Shown here: one piece after another, positions 24,573-37,037 of the stretch | How positions within the stretch are numbered: position 1 is the first letter of the stretch | Layout: each line of letters opens with the position of its first letter | Assembly (NCBI GenBank): GCA_019454765.1 | Contig: JACFNR010000027.1 | Location: 1 to 37,037, forward strand | Origin: Trueperaceae bacterium | Lineage (GTDB): Bacteria; Deinococcota; Deinococci; Deinococcales; Trueperaceae | Direction: 5' to 3' | Length of the DNA: 37,037 nt | Position numbers and translations under genes: made by a program | The notes under the pieces: model-generated | Database searches by the model: none | Told to the model about the DNA's origin: nothing | The model's input: the letters and a program-made list of their open reading frames with translations, nothing else

Positions 24573-25481
24573 TCAGCCGCCGGCCAGGTCGGCGAGCGCA
24601 TCGCGGACGCTACCGCCGCGCGCGCGCAGCGCCGCCTCGGCCCGCTCCGCCGTCACGCCGGCCTTCGTCATCACGATGGCGCGCCTGATGTCGTCGCCGG
24701 CCGCCGCCAGCGCCTTGGTGGCGGCGGCCTCGTCGACGCCCGCGCCGCGCGCCACGATCTGCACCGCGCGAACGCGCAGCTTGGCGTTGACGGGCCGCAT
24801 GCCCACCATGAGGTTGTCGTACGCGCCGCCCAGGCGCACCAGCACCGTGGTGGAGAGGGCGTTGAGGGCGGCCTTCTGGGCGGTGCCGGCCGCTAGGCGC
24901 GTGCTGCCGGCCAGCACCTCCGGCCCGGTCGCGAGGAGGACGCCCACGTCGCCGGCGCGCAGCAGGGCCGTGCCTGGGTTGTTGGCGATCCCGACGGTGA
25001 ACGCGCCGCGCGCGCGGGCGTGCTCCAGCGCCGCGACGGTGTAGGCCGTGCCGCCGCTGGCGGCGACCCCCACCACCGCGTCGAGTTCTCCGATGGCGGC
25101 GGCGGCCACGTCGTGCCCGGCGGCCGCCACGTCGTCCTCGGCCCCCTCCTTGGCCTGGGTGGTGGCCGAATCGCCGCCCGCGAGGAGCGTCAGGGCGCGG
25201 TCGAAGCCGAACGTCGGCGCCAGCTCGGCGGCGTCTTGCACCCCCAAGCGGCCCGAGGTGCCCGCCCCTATGTAGACGAGGCGCCCGCCGCGGCGCAGCC
25301 GCTCCTCTATGCCGGTGGCGGCGCGCTCCAGGTCGGGCAGGGCGGCGGCCACGGCGTCGATGGCGCGGCGGTTGGCGTCCGTGATTGCCGCGAGGATCCG
25401 TGCGGCGGGCCAGGCATCCAGCCCCGAGTAGTCGGCGCTGGCGGCCTCGGTGGCCGCGCGGCCGTTCGGTGGCTTCGTCAT
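24573..25481 (-). CDS. murQ: N-acetylmuramic acid 6-phosphate etherase
   Basis: A 302-aa cytoplasmic enzyme that cleaves the lactyl ether of MurNAc-6-phosphate to GlcNAc-6-phosphate and D-lactate in peptidoglycan recycling. The SIS domain carries VYIGAGTSGRLGVQDAAELAPTFG in which E86 is the conserved acid, and AKEGAEDD holds the second conserved Glu. A C-terminal UBA-like helical segment (TKALAAAGDDIRRAIVMTKAG) is typical. Length matches the family. The ATG overlaps the GNAT stop by 4 bp, so it ends a coupled gntR-GNAT-murQ operon. Confidence 0.95.
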   Translation of the reverse strand: MTKPPNGRAATEAASADYSGLDAWPAARILAAITDANRRAIDAVAAALPDLERAATGIEERLRRGGRLVYIGAGTSGRLGVQDAAELAPTFGFDRALTLLAGGDSATTQAKEGAEDDVAAAGHDVAAAAIGELDAVVGVAASGGTAYTVAALEHARARGAFTVGIANNPGTALLRAGDVGVLLATGPEVLAGSTRLAAGTAQKAALNALSTTVLVRLGGAYDNLMVGMRPVNAKLRVRAVQIVARGAGVDEAAATKALAAAGDDIRRAIVMTKAGVTAERAEAALRARGGSVRDALADLAGG

Positions 25482-26446
25482 AGGGGGCCCTCGACGCGTT
25501 GGTAGGTGCGCCACACGCGCGCGCCCAGCTTGCCGTAGAAGGGCGTGAGCGTCGTCCAGTTGATGACCGCGTCGGTGGCCCCGCGGTTCGCCAGCCAGAC
25601 GGCGCCTGCTCGCACCAGCGCGAGGCCGAGGCCGCTGCCCCGGGCGGACTCGCTCACGCCAAGCGGACCCATGCCGCCTGGGCGGTCGGCCACGTCGGCC
25701 ATGAGCGCACGGCGCCAGTGGAGGCTCGGTCCCAGCACGGCCTCGTCGCCGGTGAAGACGGCGCAGAAGCCGTCGGCGCGCGCCTCGCCATCGCGCTGGA
25801 GGGTGAGCACGGTGGCGCCGGCCGCCAGGTAGGCGCCAACCTCGGCCGTCCAGCGGCCGGGGAAGGCGCGGGTCACGAACTCGAGGGCGGCGGCCGGATC
25901 GTCGTCGCGGACGCGCCAACCGGGGGGCAGGGGCGCCGCCGGCGGCTCGAGGCGCAGGTCGACGTGCAGGTCGTGTTCGGTCGCGAGGAAGCGCGCGCCG
26001 GCGCGGCGCGCCAGGCGCCACAGCGCCGGGCTGGATTCCTGGGGCGGCCCGGGGAGGAGGTGGTTGGCGTCGCTGCCGAGCCGGTACGTGCGCGCGCCGC
26101 GTTCGCGGAGGCGCGCGAACAGCTCGGCGAGGAGCCGCCCGCCGACGCCCCGGCCCTGCCACGGCCCCGCCACGGCGAGCAGGGAGACCCAACCGACGCC
26201 CGCCGGCAGCCAGCTGGCGGTGGGGGTGCGGCCGTGGGTCACGCCCACCAGCTGGTCCCCGGCGAAGGCGCCGAGGAGGAGGGTGGGGTCGTGATGCGCG
26301 GCCAGGCGGTCGCGCCAGGCGCGCTCCTCGAGCGGGTAGAGCTCGGCGCGGGCGCCCCAGGCCGAGCGCCACAGGCCCGGCACCAACGCGGCCTCGCCCG
26401 CCGTCAGTTGCCGCACGGTGACTGCCGCGGCCCGCGCGGCCGTCAC
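25478..26446 (-). CDS. Two-domain GNAT N-acetyltransferase
   Basis: A 322-aa protein started at the GTG overlapping the GntR stop by 4 bp. It has two GNAT folds. The first (about 10-160) carries the acetyl-CoA loop VAGPWQGRGVGGRLLAEL. The second (about 175-322) carries LGVSESARGSGLGLALVRAG and ends with TPFYGKLGARVWRTYQR. Tandem GNATs of this kind acetylate small amines or amino sugars. Its place between a GntR regulator and murQ suggests a muropeptide or amino-sugar substrate, which is inference. No kinase motif is present. Confidence 0.75.
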   Translation of the reverse strand: MTAARAAAVTVRQLTAGEAALVPGLWRSAWGARAELYPLEERAWRDRLAAHHDPTLLLGAFAGDQLVGVTHGRTPTASWLPAGVGWVSLLAVAGPWQGRGVGGRLLAELFARLRERGARTYRLGSDANHLLPGPPQESSPALWRLARRAGARFLATEHDLHVDLRLEPPAAPLPPGWRVRDDDPAAALEFVTRAFPGRWTAEVGAYLAAGATVLTLQRDGEARADGFCAVFTGDEAVLGPSLHWRRALMADVADRPGGMGPLGVSESARGSGLGLALVRAGAVWLANRGATDAVINWTTLTPFYGKLGARVWRTYQRVEGPL

Positions 26447-27189
26447 AGGGCCCTCAGGTCGAGCGCGAGGCGGTAGCGGTCGCCGCGGTAGGCGCTGCGG
26501 GTGTACTCGAAGGGGCGCTCGCCCTCGTCGAAGGTGGTGCGCTCGAGGGCGAGCACCGGTGCGCCCTGGGCCAGGCCGAGCGCGCGCGCCTCGGCGCGGG
26601 TGGGCAGGCGGGCGCCTATGGTCTGGCGCGCCCGCACCGGCCTGATGCCGAAGCGGACTTCGAGGCAGCGGTAGAGGGAGCCGCCCGCCGCGAGCTCCTC
26701 GGTGGGCAGGTCGGCGAGGCGGGTGGCGAGGTGGGCCTCCTGGAGCGCCAGCGGCTCGCCGTCGGCGGTGCGCAGGCGCGTGACCCGCAGCACCGTGGCG
26801 CCGGGTTCGAGTCCCAGCGCGGCGGCAACCTGGTCGTCGGCGGGCACGCGCTCCGCCTTGAGCAGCCGGGCGCCGGGCTCGAAGCCGAGGTGGCGCGCCT
26901 CGTCGGTGAAGCCGAGGACGCGGTCGATGATCTGCTCGAGCGGCCGCCCGCGCACGTAGGTGCCGGAGCCCTGCTGCTGCTCCACGCGCCCTTCGGCGAC
27001 GAGCTCCTTGAAGGCGCGGCGCACGGTCATGCGCGACAGGCCGAGGCTGGCGGCGAGGTCGCGTTCGGAGGGGAGCGCGCGGCCCTGGTTGATGCGGCCG
27101 GCGTCGATGGCGTGGATCAGCTTCTCTTTGAGCTGCAGGTAGGCAGGGGTGGGCAGTGCCTTGTCGATGCGGATGTCGTCGAGTTCCAT
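26443..27189 (-). CDS. GntR/UTRA regulator (NagR/HutC type)
   Basis: A 248-aa repressor. The N-terminal winged helix includes PSERDLAASLGLSRMTVRRAF. The C-terminal UTRA effector domain (about 85-245) ends with ERPFEYTRSAYRGDRYRLAL, the conserved end of NagR, DasR and TreR relatives. UTRA domains often bind phosphorylated amino sugars such as GlcNAc-6-P, which fits a murQ-nagZ locus. The gene is divergent from the solute-binding protein, and candidate binding sites lie in the shared control region. Translation of the next gene is coupled. Confidence 0.88.
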   Translation of the reverse strand: MELDDIRIDKALPTPAYLQLKEKLIHAIDAGRINQGRALPSERDLAASLGLSRMTVRRAFKELVAEGRVEQQQGSGTYVRGRPLEQIIDRVLGFTDEARHLGFEPGARLLKAERVPADDQVAAALGLEPGATVLRVTRLRTADGEPLALQEAHLATRLADLPTEELAAGGSLYRCLEVRFGIRPVRARQTIGARLPTRAEARALGLAQGAPVLALERTTFDEGERPFEYTRSAYRGDRYRLALDLRAL

Positions 27190-27286
27190 CGCGCTGACCT
27201 TCCTGTTCGCCCGTCGCGCGGCGCCGGCGCGACCGCCGAGGGCGCCTGCGCTGCCGCCGCGGGCGTGGACCTACCACCAGAACGTA

Positions 27287-27304
27287 CCACTGCTATACCA
27301 GTGG
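27287..27304. promoter_or_regulatory. GntR/UTRA operator-like palindrome
   Basis: CCACTG and CAGTGG arms flank CTATAC, placing a TGGTATAG-like half-site similar to TGGTCTA-type NagR/DasR sites. It lies 98 bp upstream of the gntR start and 106 bp upstream of the solute-binding protein. Confidence 0.55.
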
Positions 27305-27340
27305 GTCAACGCCCGTTGGCCTCGCGCTCACCGATGCGGC

Positions 27341-27369
27341 TTGAAGGTGGTCTTAAAGTGGTCTATCGT
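27341..27369 (+). promoter_or_regulatory. Promoter of the ABC-nagZ operon with an operator repeat in its spacer
   Basis: TTGAAG (27341-27346) and TATCGT (27364-27369) are 17 bp apart. Two direct copies of GTGGTCT, 11 bp apart (27347-27353 and 27358-27364), fill the spacer. TGGTCT is the half-site of NagR/DasR-type regulators, so the divergent GntR protein could block RNA polymerase here. Confidence 0.55.
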
Positions 27370-27409
27370 GGAAGACGTAAGCGACGCTTCGTGCATGAAG
27401 GAGGTTCGG

Positions 27410-29176
27410 ATGCCGCGTAACAGACTCACGACCCTGGTCACGGCCCTGGTCCTGGCTGCTTGGGGGACGGCGCTAGCGCAACCCAAGGTGGTCGACTACC
27501 CCAACCTGGGCATGACCCCTGCCACGGTGGGCGGGACGCTCACGTTCCCGCTCGCCGACTCGCCACCCACGTTCCTCTACTACGCTCAGATCGACAACAA
27601 CACCCAGACCCTGACCGGCGTCGTCTTCGATTCCCTCGTCGAGTTCAACCTCGAGACCTACGCCATCGAACCCGCCCTCGCGGCCAGCTGGGACGTCAGC
27701 GCCGACGGCACCGTCTACACCTTCCACCTGCGCCAGGGCGTGACGTGGCACGACGGCACGCCGTTCACGGCCGCCGACGTCGTGTTCACCTACACCCAGA
27801 TCATCACCAACCCCGAGGCGCGCGCCGGTGACGCCGCCCAGTTCATGTTCACGGTCGACGGCGAGCAACGCCCCGTCACGTTCGAGGCCCCCGACGACGC
27901 CACCGTGGTCATGACCCTGCCGGCCCCGTCCGCGGCGTTCCTGCTCCAGCAGCGCTTCCCCATCTTCCCGAAGCACAAGCTCCTCCCCTTCACCGTGGAG
28001 GGCGGCGCGCAGCAGGCCGACATCAACAACGCCTGGCCCACCGACACCCCGCTTGCCGAGGTCGTGGGCACCGGTCCGTTCATGTACGACAGCTACGTCG
28101 CCGGCCAGAAGGTCGGCCTCGTGCGCAACCCCAACTACTGGAAGGTCGACTCCGCCGGCACCAGCCTCCCGTACGCCGAGCGCCTCGACTACCTCGTGGT
28201 GCGCGGCAACGAGGCGCAGGCGGCCCAGTTCCTCGCCGGCAACCTGGCCGTGCTCAACATCTCCGGCGCGCAGTTCCCCGACTTCAAGGACCGCGAGGTG
28301 GCCGGCGCCGACTTCCGCGTCGTGACCAGCCCGGCCCTCTTCGGCTCCCCGCCGCACGTGGCCTTCAACTTCGACGACCCCGCCTTCTCCGAGGTGTTCG
28401 GCGACGTGGCCTTCCGCCGCGCCATGGAGCGCGCCGTCGACCGCGAACGCGTCATCGACGACGTGTACAACGGCCTCGCCGAGATCCCCGGCACCCCCAC
28501 CGCGCCCGCCGACGGCACCTTCTACGAGGACACCAAGCCCCTGATGCTGCCGTTCGACCTCGCCGCCGCCGCCGCCGCCCTCGACGAGCTCGGCATCAAG
28601 GACACAGACGGCAACGGCGTCCGCAACGTGCCCTCCGGCAGGGACCTCGAGTTCTCGCTGACCTACAACGCCGACTCGAGCACCTTCACCGACATCGCCA
28701 CCATCCTCCAGAACGACTTCGGCAAGATCGGCGTGAAGGCCAACCTCGTGGGCGTGCAGGGCTCGGCGCTCCTCTCCACCGGCCTCGCGGGCGACTACCA
28801 GGCCATCATCATCGCGCTGGGCAACCAGCCCGACCCCGAGCTGCGCAAGCCCATCTGGCAGCCCGGCGGCTCGCTCTACTACTGGCACCGCTCCACGCAG
28901 CCGGCCACGCCGGGCGGCGAGCCGAACTTCGCCGCCATGGCCGACTGGGAGAAGCGCATCTACGACATCTTCGACCAGGGCACCACCCTCGTCGACCGGA
29001 CCGCGCGCGTGGCGCTCTACAAGGAGTGGCAGCGCCTCAACGCCGAGAACGTGCCGGTCATCATGATCGCCAAGCCCGCCAACATCGCGGCGGTGCACGA
29101 GAACGTGGGCAACTTCGTCTACAACCTGGGCGTCATCCCCGGCTACAACCCCGTCCCGCACTACTACGTCAAGTAG
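27410..29176 (+). CDS. ABC transporter solute-binding protein, family 5 (oligopeptide type)
   Basis: A 588-aa exported protein. The ATG at 27410 has AAGGAGG 5 nt upstream and is followed by a signal peptide ending ALAQ. The body shows the DppA/OppA pattern: PALAASWDVSADGTVYTFHL, RQGVTWHDGTPFTAADVVFT, GTGPFMYDSYVAGQKVGLVR and FRRAMERAVDRERVIDDV. Family 5 proteins bind di- and oligopeptides, nickel, or oligosaccharides including chitobiose and murein peptides. Linkage to nagZ and murQ favours a cell-wall fragment as ligand, but that is inference. It is the first gene of a four-gene operon and is followed by a strong hairpin. Confidence 0.9.
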   Translation: MPRNRLTTLVTALVLAAWGTALAQPKVVDYPNLGMTPATVGGTLTFPLADSPPTFLYYAQIDNNTQTLTGVVFDSLVEFNLETYAIEPALAASWDVSADGTVYTFHLRQGVTWHDGTPFTAADVVFTYTQIITNPEARAGDAAQFMFTVDGEQRPVTFEAPDDATVVMTLPAPSAAFLLQQRFPIFPKHKLLPFTVEGGAQQADINNAWPTDTPLAEVVGTGPFMYDSYVAGQKVGLVRNPNYWKVDSAGTSLPYAERLDYLVVRGNEAQAAQFLAGNLAVLNISGAQFPDFKDREVAGADFRVVTSPALFGSPPHVAFNFDDPAFSEVFGDVAFRRAMERAVDRERVIDDVYNGLAEIPGTPTAPADGTFYEDTKPLMLPFDLAAAAAALDELGIKDTDGNGVRNVPSGRDLEFSLTYNADSSTFTDIATILQNDFGKIGVKANLVGVQGSALLSTGLAGDYQAIIIALGNQPDPELRKPIWQPGGSLYYWHRSTQPATPGGEPNFAAMADWEKRIYDIFDQGTTLVDRTARVALYKEWQRLNAENVPVIMIAKPANIAAVHENVGNFVYNLGVIPGYNPVPHYYVK

Positions 29177-29198
29177 CGGCGGCGCCTAGCTGAAGACC

Positions 29199-29230
29199 CC
29201 CGGGCCGACACGCGCGCGTGCCGGCCCGGG
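29199..29230 (+). terminator. Intra-operon hairpin after the solute-binding protein gene
   Basis: A stem of CCCGGGCCG-x-CACGCG against CGCGTG-x-CGGCCCGGG, with one mismatch and almost no loop, lies between the binding-protein gene and the permeases. Hairpins here usually reduce permease expression or stabilise the upstream mRNA, giving excess binding protein. Confidence 0.65.
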
Positions 29231-29253
29231 CTATCTAGACCCGAGAGGCCCGG

Positions 29254-30225
29254 ATGTTCTCCTACCTGGTCAGGCGCGTGGCCATCATGCTCCCCACCCT
29301 CGTGCTCGTGTCGGTGGTGTGCTTCGTCGTCATCCAGGCGGCGCCCGGCTCGTTCACGGACCGCTACCTCGAGGACCCGCGCATGGGTCCCGAGGCGGTG
29401 GCGCGCATCAACGCCCAGCTGGGGCTCGACCGGCCCCTATACGAGCAGTACCTGAGGTGGGTGGGCGGCATCGTCACTCGCCTCGATTTCGGTTACAGCT
29501 TCTTCGCGAACCGCCCCGTATCTACCGTGATCGGCGAACGGCTCTTCTGGACCATCGTGGTGGCCGGCGTCACCATGTTCTTCTCCTGGCTGGTGGCCGT
29601 GCCGCTCGGCATCGTGACCGCCCTCAGGCGCAACGGCTTCACCGACGCCGTGGCCAGCTTCATCGGCTACGTGGGCCTGGCCGTGCCCGACTTCCTCATC
29701 GCGCTCCTGCTCATCGCCCTGGTGCTGCAGGCCGGCGGCACGCAGGTGGGCGGCCTCTTCAGCCCGCGCTACATCGGCGCGCCGTGGAGCTGGGCCAAGC
29801 TCGTCGACTTCTTGAACCACATGTGGATCCCCATCCTCGCCATCGGCACCACCGGCGTGGCGTCGGTCATGCGCCAGATGCGCGCCAACCTCTTGGACGT
29901 GCTCAACGCCGACTACGTGCGCACGGCCCGCTCCAAGGGCCTGGCCGAGCGGCGCGTCATCAACCGCCACGCCGTGCGCACCGCCATCAACCCGCTCGTC
30001 AGCATGCTCGGCCTGAGCCTGCCCGAGCTCATCAACGGCACCATCATCGCCAGCATCGTCCTCAACCTGCCGACCATCGGCCCGCTGCTGTACGACTCGC
30101 TCCTCGCCAAGGACCAGTACGTGGCCATGTCGCTGCTCCTCCTCGCGAGCCTGCTCCTGATGGTCGGCAACCTGCTGGCCGACGTGGCGCTCGCGTGGGT
30201 GGACCCGAGGATCCGCTATGACTGA
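29254..30225 (+). CDS. Oligopeptide-type ABC permease, DppB-like
   Basis: A 323-aa membrane protein. The start MFSYLVRRVAIMLPTLVLVS is typical of DppB/OppB, followed by a large periplasmic loop (GLDRPLYEQYLRWVGGI) and the EAA coupling loop DYVRTARSKGLAERRVINRHAVRTA. About six membrane helices. It pairs with the DppC-like permease 9 bp downstream. No ATPase subunits follow in this window, so they must be supplied from elsewhere or shared with another transporter. Confidence 0.9.
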   Translation: MFSYLVRRVAIMLPTLVLVSVVCFVVIQAAPGSFTDRYLEDPRMGPEAVARINAQLGLDRPLYEQYLRWVGGIVTRLDFGYSFFANRPVSTVIGERLFWTIVVAGVTMFFSWLVAVPLGIVTALRRNGFTDAVASFIGYVGLAVPDFLIALLLIALVLQAGGTQVGGLFSPRYIGAPWSWAKLVDFLNHMWIPILAIGTTGVASVMRQMRANLLDVLNADYVRTARSKGLAERRVINRHAVRTAINPLVSMLGLSLPELINGTIIASIVLNLPTIGPLLYDSLLAKDQYVAMSLLLLASLLLMVGNLLADVALAWVDPRIRYD

Positions 30226-30234
30226 GGCGGGAGC

Positions 30235-31350
30235 GTGAGCGCCACGGCCACCCGCCCGGCGCGCCGAGGCGGCGACGCGGCGGACGTTGGCCCCAGCCAG
30301 GCGCGCCTGGCGTGGCGCCGCTTCGCGCGCTCCCGCACCGGCATCTTCGGCGGCGTCATCCTCGCGCTGCTCTACCTCGTCGCCCTCGCCGCGCAGTTCC
30401 TCGCGCCATACGACATCACCACCCAGCACCGCGCCGTCTACCAACCGCCGCAACCCGTGCGGGTGTGGCGCGAGGGCCGGCCGCGGTGGCCCTTCACCTA
30501 CGCCATGAAGCAGGACCGCGATCCCGTCACGTTCCGGCGCATCTTCGTGCCCGACCTGGAGCAGCCGCTGCCCATCAGGCTCTTCGTGAAGGGGGAGACG
30601 TACCGCTTCCTCGGGCTGTTCGCCACCGACCGCCACCTGTTCGGGGCCGTGGGCGGCGACTACTACCCGCTCGGCACCGACCGCTTCGGGCGCGACCTGC
30701 TGTCGCGCATGCTGGTGGGCTCGCAGGTGTCGCTCACCGTGGGCCTGATCGGCATCCTCATCTCGTTCAGCATCGGCATCCTGGTGGGCGGCCTCAGCGG
30801 CTACTACGGGGGTTGGATCGACCAGGTGCTGCAACGCCTCATCGAGGTGCTGCTCTCCTTCCCGCGCATCCCCATCCTGCTTGCCCTCGCCACCGTCATC
30901 CCCACCACCTGGCCCTCCACGTACGTCTACATGGGCATCGTGGCGGTGCTGGCGCTCATCGGTTGGGCCGGCCTGGCGCGCGTGGTGCGCGGGCAGGTGC
31001 TGGCCGTGCGCGAGATGGAGTTCGTGACGGCCGCCAGGGCGCTCGGCGCGCGCGACCTCAAGATCGTCGTCCGGCACGTGGTCCCCAACCTCATGTCGTA
31101 CCTGGTGGTGGCCGCCACGCTGGCGCTGCCCGGCTACATCCTTGGGGAGAGCGCGTTGTCGTTCCTGGGCCTGGGGGTGAAGGAGCCGATGACCTCGTGG
31201 GGGCTACTCCTCAAGGACGCGCAGAACTTCGAGTCGCTGAGGCTCTACCCGTGGCTGCTGGCGCCCGGCGCCATGATCATCGTGTCGGTGCTGGCCTTCA
31301 ACTTCGTGGGCGACGCGCTGCGCGACGCGGCCGACGTGCGCTCGCGGTGA
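30235..31350 (+). CDS. Oligopeptide-type ABC permease, DppC-like
   Basis: A 371-aa membrane protein with a GTG start. The N-terminal ~25 residues form a soluble Arg-rich leader. The first helix (GGVILALLYLVALAAQFLAPY) is followed by an unusually long periplasmic insert of about 85 residues before the YPLGTDRFGRDLLSRML segment. The EAA loop is MEFVTAARALGARDLKIVVRHVVPN, and GESALSFLGLGVKEPMTSWG near the end is a DppC hallmark. Companion to the preceding permease. Confidence 0.9.
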   Translation: MSATATRPARRGGDAADVGPSQARLAWRRFARSRTGIFGGVILALLYLVALAAQFLAPYDITTQHRAVYQPPQPVRVWREGRPRWPFTYAMKQDRDPVTFRRIFVPDLEQPLPIRLFVKGETYRFLGLFATDRHLFGAVGGDYYPLGTDRFGRDLLSRMLVGSQVSLTVGLIGILISFSIGILVGGLSGYYGGWIDQVLQRLIEVLLSFPRIPILLALATVIPTTWPSTYVYMGIVAVLALIGWAGLARVVRGQVLAVREMEFVTAARALGARDLKIVVRHVVPNLMSYLVVAATLALPGYILGESALSFLGLGVKEPMTSWGLLLKDAQNFESLRLYPWLLAPGAMIIVSVLAFNFVGDALRDAADVRSR

Positions 31351-31389
31351 GGCCCCGCGCCCCGGCCTTCAGAAGCAAGAGGTGACGCC

Positions 31390-32928
31390 ATGACCCGCCT
31401 GCCGCTCATGATCGACCTCTCCGCCGCCGCCCTCACGCCAGAAGAGCGCGAGCTCCTGGCCGAGCGGCGCGTGGCCGGCGTGTGCCTGTTCGGCCGCAAC
31501 GTGACGGACCGCCACCAGCTGGCCGACTACGTGGCCGAGGCGCGCGCGCTGGCCGGTGACGAGCTGGTGGTGGGCATAGACCAGGAGGGCGGCGGGGTGC
31601 TGCGGCTGCTCGACGTGCCGTTCCCGCCCGCCGCCATGGCGCTGGGCGCCGCCGACGACCCGGTGCTCACGGAGGAGGTGGCCGCCGCCACGGGCCGCGC
31701 CCTCGCCGCCGTTGGGGTGAACCTCGACTTCGCGCCCGTGGCCGACGTGAACTCCAACCCCGCCAACCCCGTGATAGCCGACCGCTCGTTCGGCGCCGAC
31801 CCGGCGCTGGTGGCGCGCCACGTGGCGGCGTTCGTGCGCGGCCTGCAGTCGGCCGGCGTGGGGGCCACGCTCAAGCACTTCCCCGGCCACGGCGACACGA
31901 GCCTCGACTCGCACCTCGACCTGCCGGTGGTCGACCGCTCGCTCGGCGAGCTGCGCGCCACCGAGCTCGTGCCGTTCCGCGCGGGCATGGCCGCCGGCGC
32001 GGCCGCCGTGATGAGCGCCCACATCGTGCTGCCGCGGCTCGAGCCCGGCGTGCCCGCCACCCTGTCGCGCCGCGCCATGCACGGCCTGCTGCGCGAGGAG
32101 CTCGGCTTCGAGGGGTTGAGCGTCACGGACGCGCTCGACATGAAGGCCGTCGCCGACCGCTTCTCGCCCGGGGAGGCGGTCGTGCGCGCCCTGCTGGCGG
32201 GCGTGGACGTGCCGCTCACGCTCGGGTCTGTCGCCAAGCACCGCTCAGTGCTGGCAGCCATCGACGAGGCGCTGGCGGCGGGCGGGTTCGGGCCGGACGG
32301 CCTGGCGGGACCGCTGGCGCGCCTCGCCGCGTTCGCGCGCGCCTACCCCGCCCGCGCGGAGGGCGGCCGGTTGGACGCCGCGGTCGAGGCCGCCGACCGC
32401 GCCACCATGGCGCGCGCCACCCGCGCCGGCCTCGTGACGCTCGCCGGACCCCTCCCGGAGCTGGCGCCGGGCGACAGGGTGGCGGTCCTCGCCAACCGGA
32501 CCGTGCGCGCCAGCGCCGCCAGCCAGGTGAGCGCCCGGCCCGCCGAGGGGTTGGTGGAGGAGCTGCAGCGGCGCGGGGTGCAGGTCGCGTGGCTCGAGCT
32601 GCCGTGGGGCGAGGCGGTCGACCCCACTCCCTTCCTTGGGGGCCTGTCGCCCCTCCCGCGCGCCGTGCTCTACGCCTCCACCAGCCGCACGCGGGTGGCG
32701 GAGGGCGAGGCCGTCACGGCGCGCAACGCAGCCGAGTGGGCGCGTCACGCCGGCAGGGAGTTCGTGCACGTTGCCCTCTGGAACCCGTACTCCGCCGAGC
32801 TGGTGCCGGGGCCGGCGCTGCTGGCGTTCGGCTACCGGGGGACGGTCGCCGCGGCCGTGGTGGAGGCGTTGATGGGGGGCGGCGCCTCGGCGCGGGCCCC
32901 GGTACCGCTAAGAGCGTTGGCTAAGTGA
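31390..32928 (+). CDS. nagZ: Glycoside hydrolase family 3 beta-N-acetylhexosaminidase (NagZ-like)
   Basis: A 512-aa cytoplasmic enzyme (no signal peptide) that removes GlcNAc from muropeptides. VGIDQEGGGVLRL (about 61-73) and KHFPGHGDTSLDSHLDLP hold the substrate Lys-His and the D173-H175 acid/base dyad typical of NagZ. The nucleophile is D247 in VTDALDM. Beyond the catalytic barrel (~330 aa) it has a C-terminal alpha/beta domain of about 170 residues, as in two-domain Gram-positive NagZ. It follows the permease gene by 39 bp with AGAGGTGA before the ATG. Its 3' end overlaps the convergent HEPN gene by 8 bp. Confidence 0.93.
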   Translation: MTRLPLMIDLSAAALTPEERELLAERRVAGVCLFGRNVTDRHQLADYVAEARALAGDELVVGIDQEGGGVLRLLDVPFPPAAMALGAADDPVLTEEVAAATGRALAAVGVNLDFAPVADVNSNPANPVIADRSFGADPALVARHVAAFVRGLQSAGVGATLKHFPGHGDTSLDSHLDLPVVDRSLGELRATELVPFRAGMAAGAAAVMSAHIVLPRLEPGVPATLSRRAMHGLLREELGFEGLSVTDALDMKAVADRFSPGEAVVRALLAGVDVPLTLGSVAKHRSVLAAIDEALAAGGFGPDGLAGPLARLAAFARAYPARAEGGRLDAAVEAADRATMARATRAGLVTLAGPLPELAPGDRVAVLANRTVRASAASQVSARPAEGLVEELQRRGVQVAWLELPWGEAVDPTPFLGGLSPLPRAVLYASTSRTRVAEGEAVTARNAAEWARHAGREFVHVALWNPYSAELVPGPALLAFGYRGTVAAAVVEALMGGGASARAPVPLRALAK

Positions 32929-33337
32929 GTGGCCGCATCTCGTTCGCGAAATCAACGAGCATCTCTGCCTGGCGCATCGCCACCTTCAGGTCGTTTCGAC
33001 TGACGTGGATCATGCCGTACTGGGCCTTGTCCTTGAGGTCTATCAGGCGCCGCAGCGCCGTTGCTGCTTCGGCGCCCCGTGGCATGACCATCGCAACCAG
33101 AGGTTCGGCGTCGTGGTGGTCGTCGCCTCGCGAGCGGCGACCTAGGGCGTAGCAGCAAGCGGCATCGACTGCAGCTATGCCAGCGAGCACCGTAAGCGAT
33201 GCGGCTACGCTCCACGAGGCGGCATCGTCCTCATCCTGCAGAAGACGAGCTACCTCCAAGAACTTCCCGGCTGACGTCGCGCGGGTGCGCCCCTCCGCCG
33301 AGCCACATCCTTCGGTCCTTGTCTTCCCACGACTCAC
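32921..33337 (-). CDS. HEPN-domain protein, likely toxin (SAV_6107-like)
   Basis: A 138-aa helical protein with a GTG start overlapping the nucleotidyltransferase stop by 4 bp. The helical core has AAVDAACCYALGRRSRGDDHH, giving an R-x4-H-like pattern, followed by ALRRLIDLKDKAQYG and a final helix. HEPN proteins paired with minimal nucleotidyltransferases form toxin-antitoxin modules in which HEPN is an RNase and the transferase neutralises it, in known cases by adding AMP. The match to the actinobacterial SAV_6107-type group is from memory. The canonical second-helix Rx4-6H is degenerate (KAQY), so activity is uncertain. Confidence 0.72.
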   Translation of the reverse strand: MSRGKTRTEGCGSAEGRTRATSAGKFLEVARLLQDEDDAASWSVAASLTVLAGIAAVDAACCYALGRRSRGDDHHDAEPLVAMVMPRGAEAATALRRLIDLKDKAQYGMIHVSRNDLKVAMRQAEMLVDFANEMRPLT

Positions 33338-33963
33338 GTGACCGCCTCCCCAAGGAGTACCTGCGCCGGCGGTCCCGTGAGGGTCACCGCGTCGCTTAGT
33401 AGCTCATCGACGATGGGTGGGTGTTCTTGCTTCAAGCGCTCGAGTTCCTGAACGCCTATCTCGGCGATGCCGGCGTGGTGCCCCGTCCACCCGAGTACGA
33501 GGCCCGCGAGCTCGTCCAACTGGCGGCGCCATCCCCCATCTTCCTCGACCGTTGCTTCCGGGCGGACTATGAACAGATCGACGTCGCTACTGGCGCCGCC
33601 GTCACCCCGAGCCACCGAGCCGAAGAGCGATGCGTGACAAGGCGGCGTTGCCCAAGTTGTGAGTTCGCTCCTGAGGCGGTCGATCAGTGCTTGTCGCAAG
33701 GAGAGTAGAGCCAGAACGGGCTCAGCCGCCAGGTGCCGACGGTTCAAAGTGAAGAGCAGTGCGGCGCCCGCCCCAGCCTCTTGAACGTTGACCAGCCCCT
33801 GTTCTGCGAGGCGCTGCAAGACTCGAGCGACCGTGCTGCGGGACCCACCGGAAAGCCGCGCTACCTCACGCCCGCTCAACGGCCGCGTGGTCCTCGCCAA
33901 CACCACGAGGACCTTGCTGGTGCTGTCCGGGAGGACCGCTAGGTAGGGCGCCGAAGAGTCCAT
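33334..33963 (-). CDS. MNT-type nucleotidyltransferase antitoxin with N-terminal winged helix
   Basis: A 209-aa protein. Residues about 10-75 form a winged helix (LVVLARTTRPLSGREVARLS, STVARVLQRLAEQGLV). The nucleotidyltransferase core follows at about 105-190, with FGSVARGDGGASSDVDLFIV giving the GS...D-x-D metal motif. Fusing DNA-binding and transferase domains lets one protein be both autorepressor and antitoxin. It lies upstream of and overlaps the HEPN gene. The start codon sits 5 nt after a TATGAT -10 box and next to a 32-bp palindrome. Confidence 0.8.
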   Translation of the reverse strand: MDSSAPYLAVLPDSTSKVLVVLARTTRPLSGREVARLSGGSRSTVARVLQRLAEQGLVNVQEAGAGAALLFTLNRRHLAAEPVLALLSLRQALIDRLRSELTTWATPPCHASLFGSVARGDGGASSDVDLFIVRPEATVEEDGGWRRQLDELAGLVLGWTGHHAGIAEIGVQELERLKQEHPPIVDELLSDAVTLTGPPAQVLLGEAVT

Positions 33964-34108: not shown

Positions 34109-35872
34109 CTACCCGGCGCGAAGATGCGCCACGACCCCGCCGGCCTCTCGCAACATGGCCTCGTAGGGGGTCACGGGTGCGAAGCGGAAAGGACGCGGCG
34201 CGCTCCCAGGGCCGTCGATCAGCAGGACCGTGCCGGCCGCCAGGTCCAGGTCGAGGACGGTCTCGGGCGTGAGTGCTTCGTAGAACGCCTCGTCTGCGAG
34301 GGTGATGGCGATGAGCCCCTCGTCGCGCGCGCCCAGCCGGTAGAGGGGAGCGATGCTGGGCGCTATCACGGCGCGGACCCCGGCAGTCAGCAGCGCCCGC
34401 ACGGACGACGCCCGGTTGCTGCCCACCCCGAAGTTCTCGTCGCCCACAAAGACGGTGCCATCAAGGTGGCGCTCCGCGGCGGAGGGGTCGAGGTGGTGGA
34501 GCAGGAGCCGCCGCGCCACGCGCGGGTCGGGGTCGCTGGACGTGCCAACGCCGGGGACGCTGGAGGGGGTCAGGTCGTCCGTGGAGATGAGGCCCCGCAG
34601 CCTGACGACGTTGCCGGTCGTGGGCCACGTGACCGTGGGTGCCGCGGTGCCGGGGCGGTCGGTGGTCGGCGCGTCGCCGTCGGCGTTGAGCCGGCCCGTG
34701 CGCGCCGCGGTGCCGGCGGCGCGGCCGCCCACGAGGATGATGTGCGCGCGGGGCGAGCCGAGCCGGCCGAGGGTGTTGCGGTTGCCGGTGAACACGGCGA
34801 CCTCGCCGTCGGCCAACCGCGTCATCCCGAAACCGAAGCACGGGCCGCAACCGGGGGCGAGGAGGGTGACCCCGGCGGCCTCCATCCGGCTTACGATGCC
34901 GGCCTCGCCGAGTCGCGCCAGCACGCCGGCCGTGGCGGGCGCGACGACGGTGGGGACTGCCACCCGCCCGTCGAGTTCAGCCGCGAAGGCGGCGACCTCC
35001 TCGAAGGTGCCGCCCGAGCACGTGCCCACGATCACCCGGTCGACGCGGGTGGCGCCGAGGTGCTCGAGCGGCACGGCGTCGGCCGGGTTGCCGCTGCGCG
35101 CCGCGGTGGGGCGCACCCGGCCGAGGTCGAGCGTGAGGGCGGGGGTGGCGGGCGGCGGCGCGTCGTCCGCCCCCGCGGGGAACGTGACGGTGAGGGCCAC
35201 CGCCTCGGGCACCACGTTGGCGAGGACGGCGCGCTCGGAGGGGGTCAGGCCCGCGAGGCCCGCCCCGCCGAACTCGAGCGCCTTGCCGGTGGCGAGGCGG
35301 GGCGTCGGGCCGCCGTCTCGCAGCAGCCCGAGGAGGGTGAGCGCCGCGTCGCGCGCCGTGACGCCCGGCGCGAGGGCGCCGACCACCTCGACCCGCAGCG
35401 TCTCGGGCACGCGCAGCACGAACCTGCCCGTGTGGATGGCGGCCGCCAACGTGGTGGGTTGCGCGGCGAACGCCACCACCCCGTACGCGCCCAGCGTGGG
35501 CGCGTGCGAGTCGTTGCCCAGCACGAGCATGCCGGGGCGCAACCTGCCGCTGGCCGGGAGGGCGTGGTGCTGGATCCCCTGGCCCACCAGGCGCTCGGCC
35601 CCGAAGCGCTCCACGAACTCGTCCTCGACCCGGCGCAGCTCGAGCACCCGGTCGCGGTCGGCGCCCGAGTAGGTGTCCGCCGGCCCGGTGTGATCGCGCA
35701 CCAGGACGAGGGGGGCGGCGGAGCGGGTGGTGCCCAGCGCGCCCAAGACGGGGCACAGCGCGGGGGTGGTCCAGTCGTCGGTGACGATGAGGTCGACCGC
35801 GAGGTCGACCTCCTGTCCGGCGGGCGCGCCGAGAAGGCGCTCGATGCGCGTTCTGGGCCCGGGGTCGGTCAC
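34109..35872 (-). CDS. Single-chain LeuC/LeuD-like hydro-lyase (aconitase superfamily)
   Basis: A 587-aa protein, GTG start overlapping the upstream gene by 4 bp. The N-terminal ~400 residues are LeuC-like: LVLGNDSHAPTLGAYGVVAF, ALAPGVTARDAALTLLG, and the three 4Fe-4S cysteines in IVGTCSGGTFEEV and PGCGPCFGFG. The C-terminal swivel domain is LeuD-like: GDENFGVGSNRASSVRALL, then GVRAVIAPSIAPLYRL. The substrate-loop Ser of aconitase (GSSRE) is Asn486 here. LeuC and LeuD are usually two chains in bacteria; fused forms occur in homoaconitase-like or aconitase-like enzymes. It catalyses reversible dehydration of a hydroxy acid whose identity is unknown. Confidence 0.83.
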   Translation of the reverse strand: MTDPGPRTRIERLLGAPAGQEVDLAVDLIVTDDWTTPALCPVLGALGTTRSAAPLVLVRDHTGPADTYSGADRDRVLELRRVEDEFVERFGAERLVGQGIQHHALPASGRLRPGMLVLGNDSHAPTLGAYGVVAFAAQPTTLAAAIHTGRFVLRVPETLRVEVVGALAPGVTARDAALTLLGLLRDGGPTPRLATGKALEFGGAGLAGLTPSERAVLANVVPEAVALTVTFPAGADDAPPPATPALTLDLGRVRPTAARSGNPADAVPLEHLGATRVDRVIVGTCSGGTFEEVAAFAAELDGRVAVPTVVAPATAGVLARLGEAGIVSRMEAAGVTLLAPGCGPCFGFGMTRLADGEVAVFTGNRNTLGRLGSPRAHIILVGGRAAGTAARTGRLNADGDAPTTDRPGTAAPTVTWPTTGNVVRLRGLISTDDLTPSSVPGVGTSSDPDPRVARRLLLHHLDPSAAERHLDGTVFVGDENFGVGSNRASSVRALLTAGVRAVIAPSIAPLYRLGARDEGLIAITLADEAFYEALTPETVLDLDLAAGTVLLIDGPGSAPRPFRFAPVTPYEAMLREAGGVVAHLRAG

Positions 35873-37037
35873 GCCGCGTCGGCGGCTAGCGCTGTTCCCG
35901 TGGCCGCCTCGGGCCGGCAGTAGCGGACGGTCCGGAACCGCCGCGCCAGCGCCGTGACCCGCTCGCGGACCTGCGCGCGCGGCGCCTCGCCCGTGAGGGC
36001 CCCGTGCATGAGCCCGGCGAGCTGCACCATCTCGGGTTCGCGCATGCCCAGCCTCGTGGCCTCGGGCGTCCCCAGCCGCAGCCCCTTGCGGCGCAGCGAC
36101 GGGATGAGGTTCACGTTGGCGATGAGGTTGGCCTCGTGCAGCGCCTCGACCGCCTCGTCCGGCGTGGCGCGCGGGCTCACGTCGAGCCACACCTGGTGCG
36201 AGTCGGTTAGCCGCTCGCCGCCCTGCACGGCCAGCCCGAGGCGCCTGAGTTCCGCGCCGAGGGCGCGCGCGTTGGCCACGGTCTGGCGGGCGTAGGCCGC
36301 GCCGTGCTCCTGCGCCTCCGCCAGCGTGACGGCGAGGGCCGCCACGTGGTGGAGGTGGAAGTTGGAGACGTGGCCGGGGAAGATGGTCGCCTCCACGCGC
36401 GCCACGATGTCGTCGCGGTTCGTGAGGATGATGCCCTTCTGTGGCCCGGGCAGCGACTTGTGGGTGCTGCCCGACAGCACGTCGGCGCCCTCGCGCAGAG
36501 GGTCCTGGAAGAGGCCGCCGGCGAGCAGGCCGAGGACCTGCGACGCGTCGTAGACGATGATGGCGTCGGGCCCGGCGAGGCGCCGCAGCTCCCTGACCGG
36601 GTGCGCGAAGAGGATCATGGAGGCGTCGAGGTAGATGACGTCCGGCGGCGCGGCCGCGAAGGCGCGTTCGCAGGCGGCCACGTCGATGGTGGCGTTGGCG
36701 GCGTCGTACGGGATCAGGCGGAGGTCGTCGGTCAGCCGCGCAGCCACGCTGCGCGCCGCGAAGTGCCCGCCGTCCTCCATGGCGAGGTGGTAGAAGGTGC
36801 CGCCGCGCTCCAGCACGGAGTGGATGACGATGTTCGTGCAGTTCTCCCCCGAGAGCGGCCGCACGTTGGCGTGGCGGGCGCCGAACACGCTGCAGGCGAG
36901 CTCCTGCGCCGCCACCTCGACCTCGGACAAGTGCTTGCCGCCCACGTAGCGCCACTGCGGGTTCTGGAACAGGTAGCGGTGGCCTAGGTCCGACGCCATG
37001 ACGCTGCGAGCCGCGGGGCTGAGCAGGTTCTCTGTTG
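35869..37037 (-). CDS. Serine hydroxymethyltransferase-like PLP enzyme, 5' end beyond window
   Basis: The frame stays open to the window edge, and residues before the internal ATG at 36999 (TENLLSPAARSV) match the SHMT N-terminus, so the gene continues upstream. Counting from that ATG, K181 in GSTHKSLPGPQKG is the PLP lysine and D151 in YDASQVLGLL holds the cofactor ring. The RYVGGKHLSEVEVAAQELAC and PLSGENCTNI segments fit SHMT. Differences from GlyA (YDASQ instead of DMAHI, THKSLPGPQKG instead of THKTLRGPRGG) suggest a specialised relative acting on a different aldehyde or amino acid. Coupled to the LeuC/LeuD-like gene by a GTGA overlap. Confidence 0.8.
   Translation of the reverse strand, partial: TENLLSPAARSVMASDLGHRYLFQNPQWRYVGGKHLSEVEVAAQELACSVFGARHANVRPLSGENCTNIVIHSVLERGGTFYHLAMEDGGHFAARSVAARLTDDLRLIPYDAANATIDVAACERAFAAAPPDVIYLDASMILFAHPVRELRRLAGPDAIIVYDASQVLGLLAGGLFQDPLREGADVLSGSTHKSLPGPQKGIILTNRDDIVARVEATIFPGHVSNFHLHHVAALAVTLAEAQEHGAAYARQTVANARALGAELRRLGLAVQGGERLTDSHQVWLDVSPRATPDEAVEALHEANLIANVNLIPSLRRKGLRLGTPEATRLGMREPEMVQLAGLMHGALTGEAPRAQVRERVTALARRFRTVRYCRPEAATGTALAADAA

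Follow-up and report, generated by a model that had tools for sequence, protein, structure and literature searches.

We describe a pair of overlapping genes at one end of a contig from a Trueperaceae bacterium (GenBank JACFNR010000027.1; here contig C27, positions 1-37037, of a 2.9-Mb, 93-contig genome, G000). The whole contig of 37,037 nucleotides is called the window below. One gene encodes an SHMT-like enzyme dependent on pyridoxal phosphate (PLP) and the other a hydro-lyase of the aconitase superfamily in which both subunits are fused into a single chain. Our best explanation, which we hold tentatively, is that the two form an accessory, self-contained two-enzyme module in which the fused hydro-lyase would dehydrate a beta-hydroxy compound, with 3-hydroxyaspartate as the most economical intermediate. 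The pair joins two enzyme families that we have not seen described as partners, and literature searches found no description of it (most subscription journals lay outside their coverage). Both superfamilies are already known; what looks new is the fused subfamily and its coupling to the SHMT-like gene.

Anatomy of the locus

The features of the pair, all on the minus strand, are as follows.

35869..37037, minus strand: gene for an SHMT-superfamily (threonine-transaldolase-like) PLP enzyme, its 5' end cut by the contig edge
36937..36981, minus strand: loop 1, HRYLFQNPQWRYVGG, of the SHMT-like protein, with Phe for the Glu of KYAEG and Val for Tyr65
36538..36540, minus strand: Gln of YDASQ in the SHMT-like protein, a His in 19 of 19 compared SHMT/transaldolase rows
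36457..36459, minus strand: PLP-binding Lys (GSTHK) of the SHMT-like protein
35869..35872, minus strand: GTGA, the 4-bp stop/start overlap between the SHMT-like and hydro-lyase genes
34109..35872, minus strand: gene for a single-chain aconitase-superfamily hydro-lyase, with a LeuC/HacA-like large part and a LeuD/HacB-like small part
34613..35872, minus strand: large Fe-S part of the hydro-lyase, residues 1-420, with Cys285, Cys342 and Cys345 as predicted cluster ligands
34109..34612, minus strand: small part of the hydro-lyase, residues 421-587 and stop
34532..34582, minus strand: rewritten substrate-recognition loop of the hydro-lyase, TDDLTPSSVPGVGTSSD, without Lys or Arg
34409..34423, minus strand: GSNRA in place of GSSRE in the hydro-lyase; Ser485 (= Ser642) and Arg487 (= Arg644) are kept and the second Ser is Asn

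The SHMT-like reading frame (35869-37035) is open at its 5' end and is short of about 51 N-terminal codons relative to a full-length orthologue (the match begins at residue 52 of 440). Its product matches Pfam SHMT at 2.6e-40. The hydro-lyase gene has a GTG start and encodes 587 amino acids, with Pfam Aconitase (8.9e-46) and Aconitase_C (2e-6) matches within the one chain. A first-pass annotation of the window had reported the 4-bp overlap of the two genes; it is present, and a GTGA or ATGA overlap was found in all eight loci examined.

Elsewhere the genome carries its own GlyA (533 bits) and three more aconitase-family enzymes with small domains, on contigs C5, C9 and C37, whose labels as AcnA-, LeuCD- and LysTU-type enzymes rest on length, arrangement and similarity. 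The pair is therefore an extra, and there seems to be no absent housekeeping function that either gene would supply.

Distribution and relocation of the pair

Orthologues of the hydro-lyase were found in 11 of 111 genomes of the phylum, the window's own included (52-75% identity to the other ten); further matches in the phylum, 31-40% identical, look like ordinary paralogues. Orthologues of the SHMT-like protein occur in ten of the 111 genomes, namely the hydro-lyase carriers minus G089, and in these 10 of 11 carriers the two genes adjoin; the contig of G089 ends at this point, its hydro-lyase starting from base 9. Two further loci, L009 and L010, are the same as those of G093 and G094 and were counted once. 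All 11 carriers fall in one family, the Trueperaceae (11 of its 39 genomes, in five genera). Relative to the window's copy, dN/dS was 0.18-0.32 for the SHMT-like gene and 0.24-0.50 for the hydro-lyase gene (seven comparisons each), and both genes look to be under purifying selection.

The pair moves as a unit, with different sites across genera and empty sites in relatives. In G091 and G093 it sits between DegV-like and ComM-like genes (names given by sight). The same gap is empty and about 100 bp long in G092, which belongs to the same genus and whose genome is a single contig, and about 180 bp in the window's own genome, where the pair is located elsewhere; in G090 about 1.1 kb separates the two genes, and nothing there matches the pair. 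In G105 and G107 the pair sits between tRNA-Glu and tRNA-Val, a gap that measures 127 bp in G106 and 279 bp in G104, genomes of the same genus without the pair there; the contig of G103 ends before this site can be compared. In genus g15 (L038 3719-7135 and L039 6472-9856) the tRNA-Glu and tRNA-Val on either side of the pair belong to a Lys-Glu-Val tRNA array, which is without the pair in two relatives. The varied sites may reflect either transfer or repeated loss and rearrangement.

Clustering of the neighbouring gene calls, from which the duplicate loci L009, L010 and L036 were left out, turned up no third gene that stays beside the pair from genus to genus. The negative is a limited one, because the gene calls were heuristic, missing some genes including the G105 hydro-lyase, and some contigs were short (those of G079, G089 and G094 extend little on one or both sides of the pair). 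The between-genus links that did emerge were a CtaG-like gene several genes off and weakly similar DegV paralogues; the DegV-like neighbours of G087 and G088 are about 33-35% identical to that of G093 and lie on different sides of the pair.

The first-pass annotation had proposed that the two genes act together. Co-occurrence in all ten carriers in which the SHMT side is visible, the 4-bp overlap and the joint relocation speak for this; that they also share a substrate would be a further step.

The SHMT-like protein

The SHMT-like protein had been said to diverge from GlyA at motif positions, and it does so, among others at the folate Glu and Tyr65. Loop 1, HRYLFQNPQWRYVGG, is invariant in nine rows of alignment A2. 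The Glu of KYAEG and the Tyr of RYYGG, which we take to be E57 and Y65 in E. coli SHMT numbering with their usual roles in the folate loop, are replaced by Phe and Val in all ten family rows. Glu stands at the folate-catalytic place in 8 of 19 comparison rows, all of them SHMT-type, and in no transaldolase-type row. A further His, conserved in 19 of 19 comparison rows, is changed to Gln in 10 of 10 family rows. The QWRYV stretch of the family is akin to EWHFP in ObiH and DWRFP in rows linked to nonribosomal peptide synthetases (NRPS). The family keeps the PLP-binding Lys, the Asp, the stacking His and the carboxylate Arg; these do not discriminate between transaldolase and SHMT because they are common to both.

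In a tree of 29 rows the family joined the OrfA-type and NRPS-linked rows (support 95/97) and then fluorothreonine transaldolase (FTase) and ObiH (94/96), apart from GlyA and Methanocaldococcus jannaschii SHMT. When three rows, ObiH among them, were removed, the join with the OrfA-type and NRPS-linked rows was supported at 91/90 and that with FTase at 96/95. On this reduced set a tree forcing the family together with GlyA and the M. jannaschii-type SHMT was rejected (approximately unbiased test, p-AU 0.014; the group to be tested was named after the first tree had been seen). The FTase row (L053) is genuine, with 1208 bits on the curated fluorothreonine-transaldolase model, and the label "OrfA-type" for L051 rests on its neighbours and organism. 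An ancestry of the enzyme among transaldolase-type proteins is supported but not settled.

The fused hydro-lyase

The best matches of the hydro-lyase among solved structures were large subunits of homoaconitase and isopropylmalate isomerase (IPMI), with 4kp2 at the top. By tblastn in its own genome it scored 106 bits against LeuC and 147 against the LysT-type protein. The earlier description as "LeuC/LeuD-like" is right in that both domains are present in one chain, but the enzyme is nearer to homoaconitase and archaeal-type IPMI (4kp2) than to its own LeuC. In a tree the fused family formed a separate branch (100/100) with a long stem. The best score on an NCBIfam model was 223 bits against a cut-off of 385, and the enzyme lay below cut-off in the 25 families listed of 26.

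Conserved in all ten fused-family rows are DSH, NRN-GR, the His of GIQHH, the three cluster Cys and the Ser and Arg of GS-x-R; the equivalents of Ser642 and of Arg447, Arg452 and Arg644 are kept in every row. The DH pair is present in all nine rows that reach that position, and row G107 alone has Gln for the Glu of KALEF. Divergence from LeuCD at motif positions, also claimed in the first-pass annotation, is clear in the same ten rows: CTN has become C[AS]GG, GSSRE has become GSNRA, and the small-subunit loop reads [ST]TDD[LI]TPS-x-VPG[VI]G[TSA]S-x-D. From TPS to the final Asp of this loop, none of the ten rows has a Lys or Arg, versus eight of nine comparison rows (one haloarchaeal row is without). 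The second Asp of TDD is found in 10 of 10 fused-family rows and in none of the nine others. GSSRE and the loop region are described as the two substrate-binding regions of the small subunit (PMC7308503). Because the catalytic residues are kept and both substrate-recognition sites are rewritten, the chemistry of the fused enzyme is probably intact and its specificity changed.

Searches outside the Trueperaceae

Sampling outside the family is broad but thin. No fused GSNRA relative was recognised in 279 sampled genomes outside the phylum; the one further hydro-lyase match among them (G169) is a two-subunit enzyme, and three of four further SHMT-like matches keep YAEG. Among 301 genomes of the phylum of G169, at least two of which were also in the earlier sample, 23 matched the hydro-lyase search. 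The best match was inspected in 11 of these 23: ten were two-subunit GSSRE enzymes, with no SHMT-like gene beside them in loci of about 4.7 kb, and one was fused. This last, in G620 (L123 7422-9323), is a single-chain homoaconitase-like GSSREQ enzyme in an apparent lysine operon; fusion as such is thus not unique to the Trueperaceae pair, and the G620 chain is perhaps an independent fusion of the two subunits. No relative was found in viral contigs. A contig scan with exact peptides returned only the G093 and G094 loci again, and its silence elsewhere means little because the patterns missed most of the orthologues that were found later.

A proposed pathway and its alternatives

A transaldolase-type PLP enzyme would produce or consume beta-hydroxy-alpha-amino acids, and the hydroxyl that enzymes of the aconitase superfamily eliminate is one next to an acidic C-H. 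A shared beta-hydroxy-alpha-amino acid is therefore the simplest link between the two, and the first-pass suggestion of a beta-hydroxy amino acid or hydroxy diacid as the pathway compound was a fair guess. In the fused enzyme, Ser would take the alpha proton and the Fe-S cluster the beta hydroxyl, giving dehydration and perhaps rehydration. We favour 3-hydroxyaspartate as the putative intermediate because it fits both chemistries. It would arise from an aldol reaction between a glycyl unit and glyoxylate; as "3-aminomalate" it would also present the malate backbone that IPMI-type enzymes bind. Its dehydration would yield iminosuccinate and, from this, oxaloacetate and ammonia. A loop that has lost basic residues and gained conserved Asp residues would be suited to an amino group rather than a third carboxylate. 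Aconitase X carries out this type of dehydration on cis-3-hydroxy-L-proline, where the base is a Ser642 equivalent and an Asp contacts the nitrogen of the substrate (PMC8184944). The shared substrate, the direction of the pathway and the identity of the aldehyde are the parts that we infer.

A more specific version would be a new route of glyoxylate assimilation. In it the PLP enzyme would join glyoxylate with a glycyl unit derived from Thr or Gly, and a hydro-lyase re-tooled from IPMI or homoaconitase, its basic recognition loop turned into an acidic or neutral one, would carry 3-hydroxyaspartate on to iminosuccinate and oxaloacetate. The two genes would then be the minimal unit travelling through the Trueperaceae, where a two-part isocitrate lyase match is found in 2 of 39 genomes. 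We consider this version improbable. Should the 3-hydroxyaspartate reading be correct, the pair would open a new way of making C4 acids from C2 units.

Several observations weigh against the proposed module and its intermediate. That two genes adjoin is no proof that their products share a substrate. Three rows on the SHMT side (G148, Paraburkholderia and Mesorhizobium) are also without the folate Glu, and several rows of the tree are long branches. In pairwise comparison with solved structures, a full-length orthologue scored 258 bits against M. jannaschii SHMT, 158 against ObiH and 147 against Thermus SHMT. On the NCBIfam SHMT model (PRK00011) four family members scored 280-300 bits, which is close under the cut-off of 335 and yet makes it the best-scoring model; on the NCBIfam fluorothreonine-transaldolase model the family scored lower, 218-252 bits, well under the cut-off of 650, with matches that end by position 420 of 609. 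Unlike the family, the controls L051, L052 and L088 lean slightly to transaldolase (transaldolase/SHMT bits 195/186, 210/186 and 154/143). An AlphaFold2 model built from three sequences was unusable, with a pLDDT of 41. Nor do the enzymes expected around glyoxylate and iminosuccinate follow the pair. PF02423, which we take to be the iminosuccinate reductase family, is found in 35 of 39 family genomes, whether or not they carry the pair. PF00463 (isocitrate lyase) matched in 16 of 39, in 14 of these in part (four carriers among them), and neither of the two genomes with both halves is a carrier. Neither family tracks the pair, and the phyletic comparison with either is uninformative on 3-hydroxyaspartate.

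The most probable alternative, although we think it unlikely, is a specialised metabolite: the first enzyme would use an aldehyde without a carboxylate to build a beta-hydroxy amino acid, and the substrate of the hydro-lyase would be another compound of that pathway, a malate-type acid. Specialised metabolites are what other members of the transaldolase clade make, and the closest relatives from the plasmid collection are encoded in apparent natural-product clusters; L051 adjoins what we take to be clavam-type genes, and other relatives adjoin P450 and radical-SAM genes or an NRPS gene. However, the surroundings of the pair yielded no NRPS gene, tailoring gene or other third gene recurring across genera, within the reach of the gene calls and contigs, and a relocating unit of two genes argues for a short link between common metabolites.

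Less probable still is a reverse, catabolic or detoxifying use, in which the Fe-S enzyme would hydrate or isomerise an unsaturated or hydroxy acid to a beta-hydroxy amino acid and the PLP enzyme would cleave this to glycine and an aldehyde. Aldol or transaldol and hydro-lyase reactions are both reversible, and the 3-hydroxyaspartate scheme itself could run either as glyoxylate assimilation or as removal of 3-hydroxyaspartate; within the same gene calls and contigs, no transporter or regulator was found travelling with the pair.

Least probable is a redundant set of housekeeping-type enzymes, a divergent SHMT paralogue adjoining a fused IPMI or homoaconitase: the SHMT model score, the M. jannaschii SHMT match and the single chain in the lysine-type operon of G620 favour it, but the folate Glu is gone, the family stands away from GlyA in the tree, separate GlyA, LeuCD and LysTU-type genes are present in the genome, and every family row has a rewritten GSSRE motif and recognition loop. 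Plain GlyA and LeuCD are for their part unlikely from the motifs, the trees and the separate housekeeping copies, and were retained as a rival because the family-model scores lean to SHMT. The clustering with normal GlyA and LeuCD that the first-pass annotation had named as refuting its reading was seen in the trees of neither family, although pairwise and model scores still favour SHMT.

The pair is small enough for an assay that needs just two purified enzymes. It would take transaldolase-type chemistry beyond antibiotic clusters, and it offers a natural experiment on how an aconitase-type active site switches substrate.

Upstream regions and neighbouring genes

The pair may carry its own promoter, since CTTATGATA, which resembles a -10 box, precedes the SHMT-like gene in six of eight upstream regions examined (L034, L036, L031, L032, L033 and L040). 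In G091, G093 and G083 a palindrome resembling CTTTCG..TTCGAAAG comes after CTTATGATA; in G087, G088 and G079 the ATG lies close behind CTTATGATA and the mRNA may be leaderless. No RNA element that would control the pair was found at gathering threshold in nine loci or in the window. A c-di-GMP-II riboswitch match (L032 7038-7121) lies just upstream of the pair in G087; it is on the opposite strand and therefore would control the neighbouring gene.

Adjoining the pair in the window (32921-33963) are two overlapping small genes, one encoding a winged helix and a nucleotidyltransferase domain and the other without a Pfam match; by sight they resemble a HEPN/MNT-type toxin-antitoxin pair. Positions 24573-32928 hold genes for a SIS-domain protein (MurQ-like by sight), a GNAT protein, a GntR-UTRA regulator, an oligopeptide-type ABC transporter and a GH3 protein (NagZ-like by sight), perhaps a peptidoglycan-recycling set.

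Comparison with known systems

The L-threonine transaldolases include ObiH/ObaG, FTase and LipK. The SHMT-like family resembles ObiH/ObaG, FTase and clavam OrfA in tree position and in loss of the folate Glu, and also in the W-R/H-Y/F stretch of loop 1, DGGHF and THK-x-PGPQKG. KaTTA, of the OrfA cluster, is reported to be active as a threonine transaldolase (PMC10495429). The family differs from these transaldolases in a shorter loop 1, in the His-to-Gln change, which is found in no compared row, and in its setting: no recognisable biosynthetic cluster lies beside the gene, and the partner is an aconitase-superfamily enzyme. By sequence, the best solved-structure match is M. jannaschii SHMT (4bhd), presumably a tetrahydromethanopterin-linked SHMT, which keeps YAEG...RLYQG where the family has YLFQ...RYVGG.

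Other SHMT-like loci are also of note. On a Mesorhizobium plasmid (L091 4812-6116) a gene between amino-acid ABC transporter and dihydroxyacetone kinase genes encodes an SHMT-like protein that lacks the folate Glu and may be an aldolase acting on a different hydroxy amino acid. On a Haloarcula plasmid (L093 2384-5727) RidA, SHMT and threonine ammonia-lyase stand side by side, and the S. clavuligerus cluster likewise has a Rid protein and a threonine/serine dehydratase near the SHMT-like gene.

With IPMI and homoaconitase (LeuCD, HacAB and LysTU) the fused enzyme shares the domains, the three cluster Cys, DH, DSH, NRN-GR and the catalytic Ser and Arg; it differs in being one chain, in GSNRA, in the altered recognition loop, in C[AS]GGT for CTN and in its long separate branch. 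As to aconitase X, all eight fused-family members compared match the classical Aconitase and Aconitase_C models, whereas Pfam AcnX is matched weakly, by two of the eight at E <= 0.001 (best 1.5e-4).

The aldolase and the dehydratase of the beta-hydroxyaspartate cycle (AGAT, BHAA, BHAD and ISR), which we take to be of D-threonine-aldolase type and a PLP enzyme, respectively, are unrelated to the present pair. Within the limited gene calls, no aminotransferase (AGAT) or iminosuccinate reductase was found beside the pair. The pathway proposed here would nevertheless follow the same kind of course as that cycle (PMC8166194), from an aldol reaction to 3-hydroxyaspartate and on, by dehydration, to iminosuccinate.

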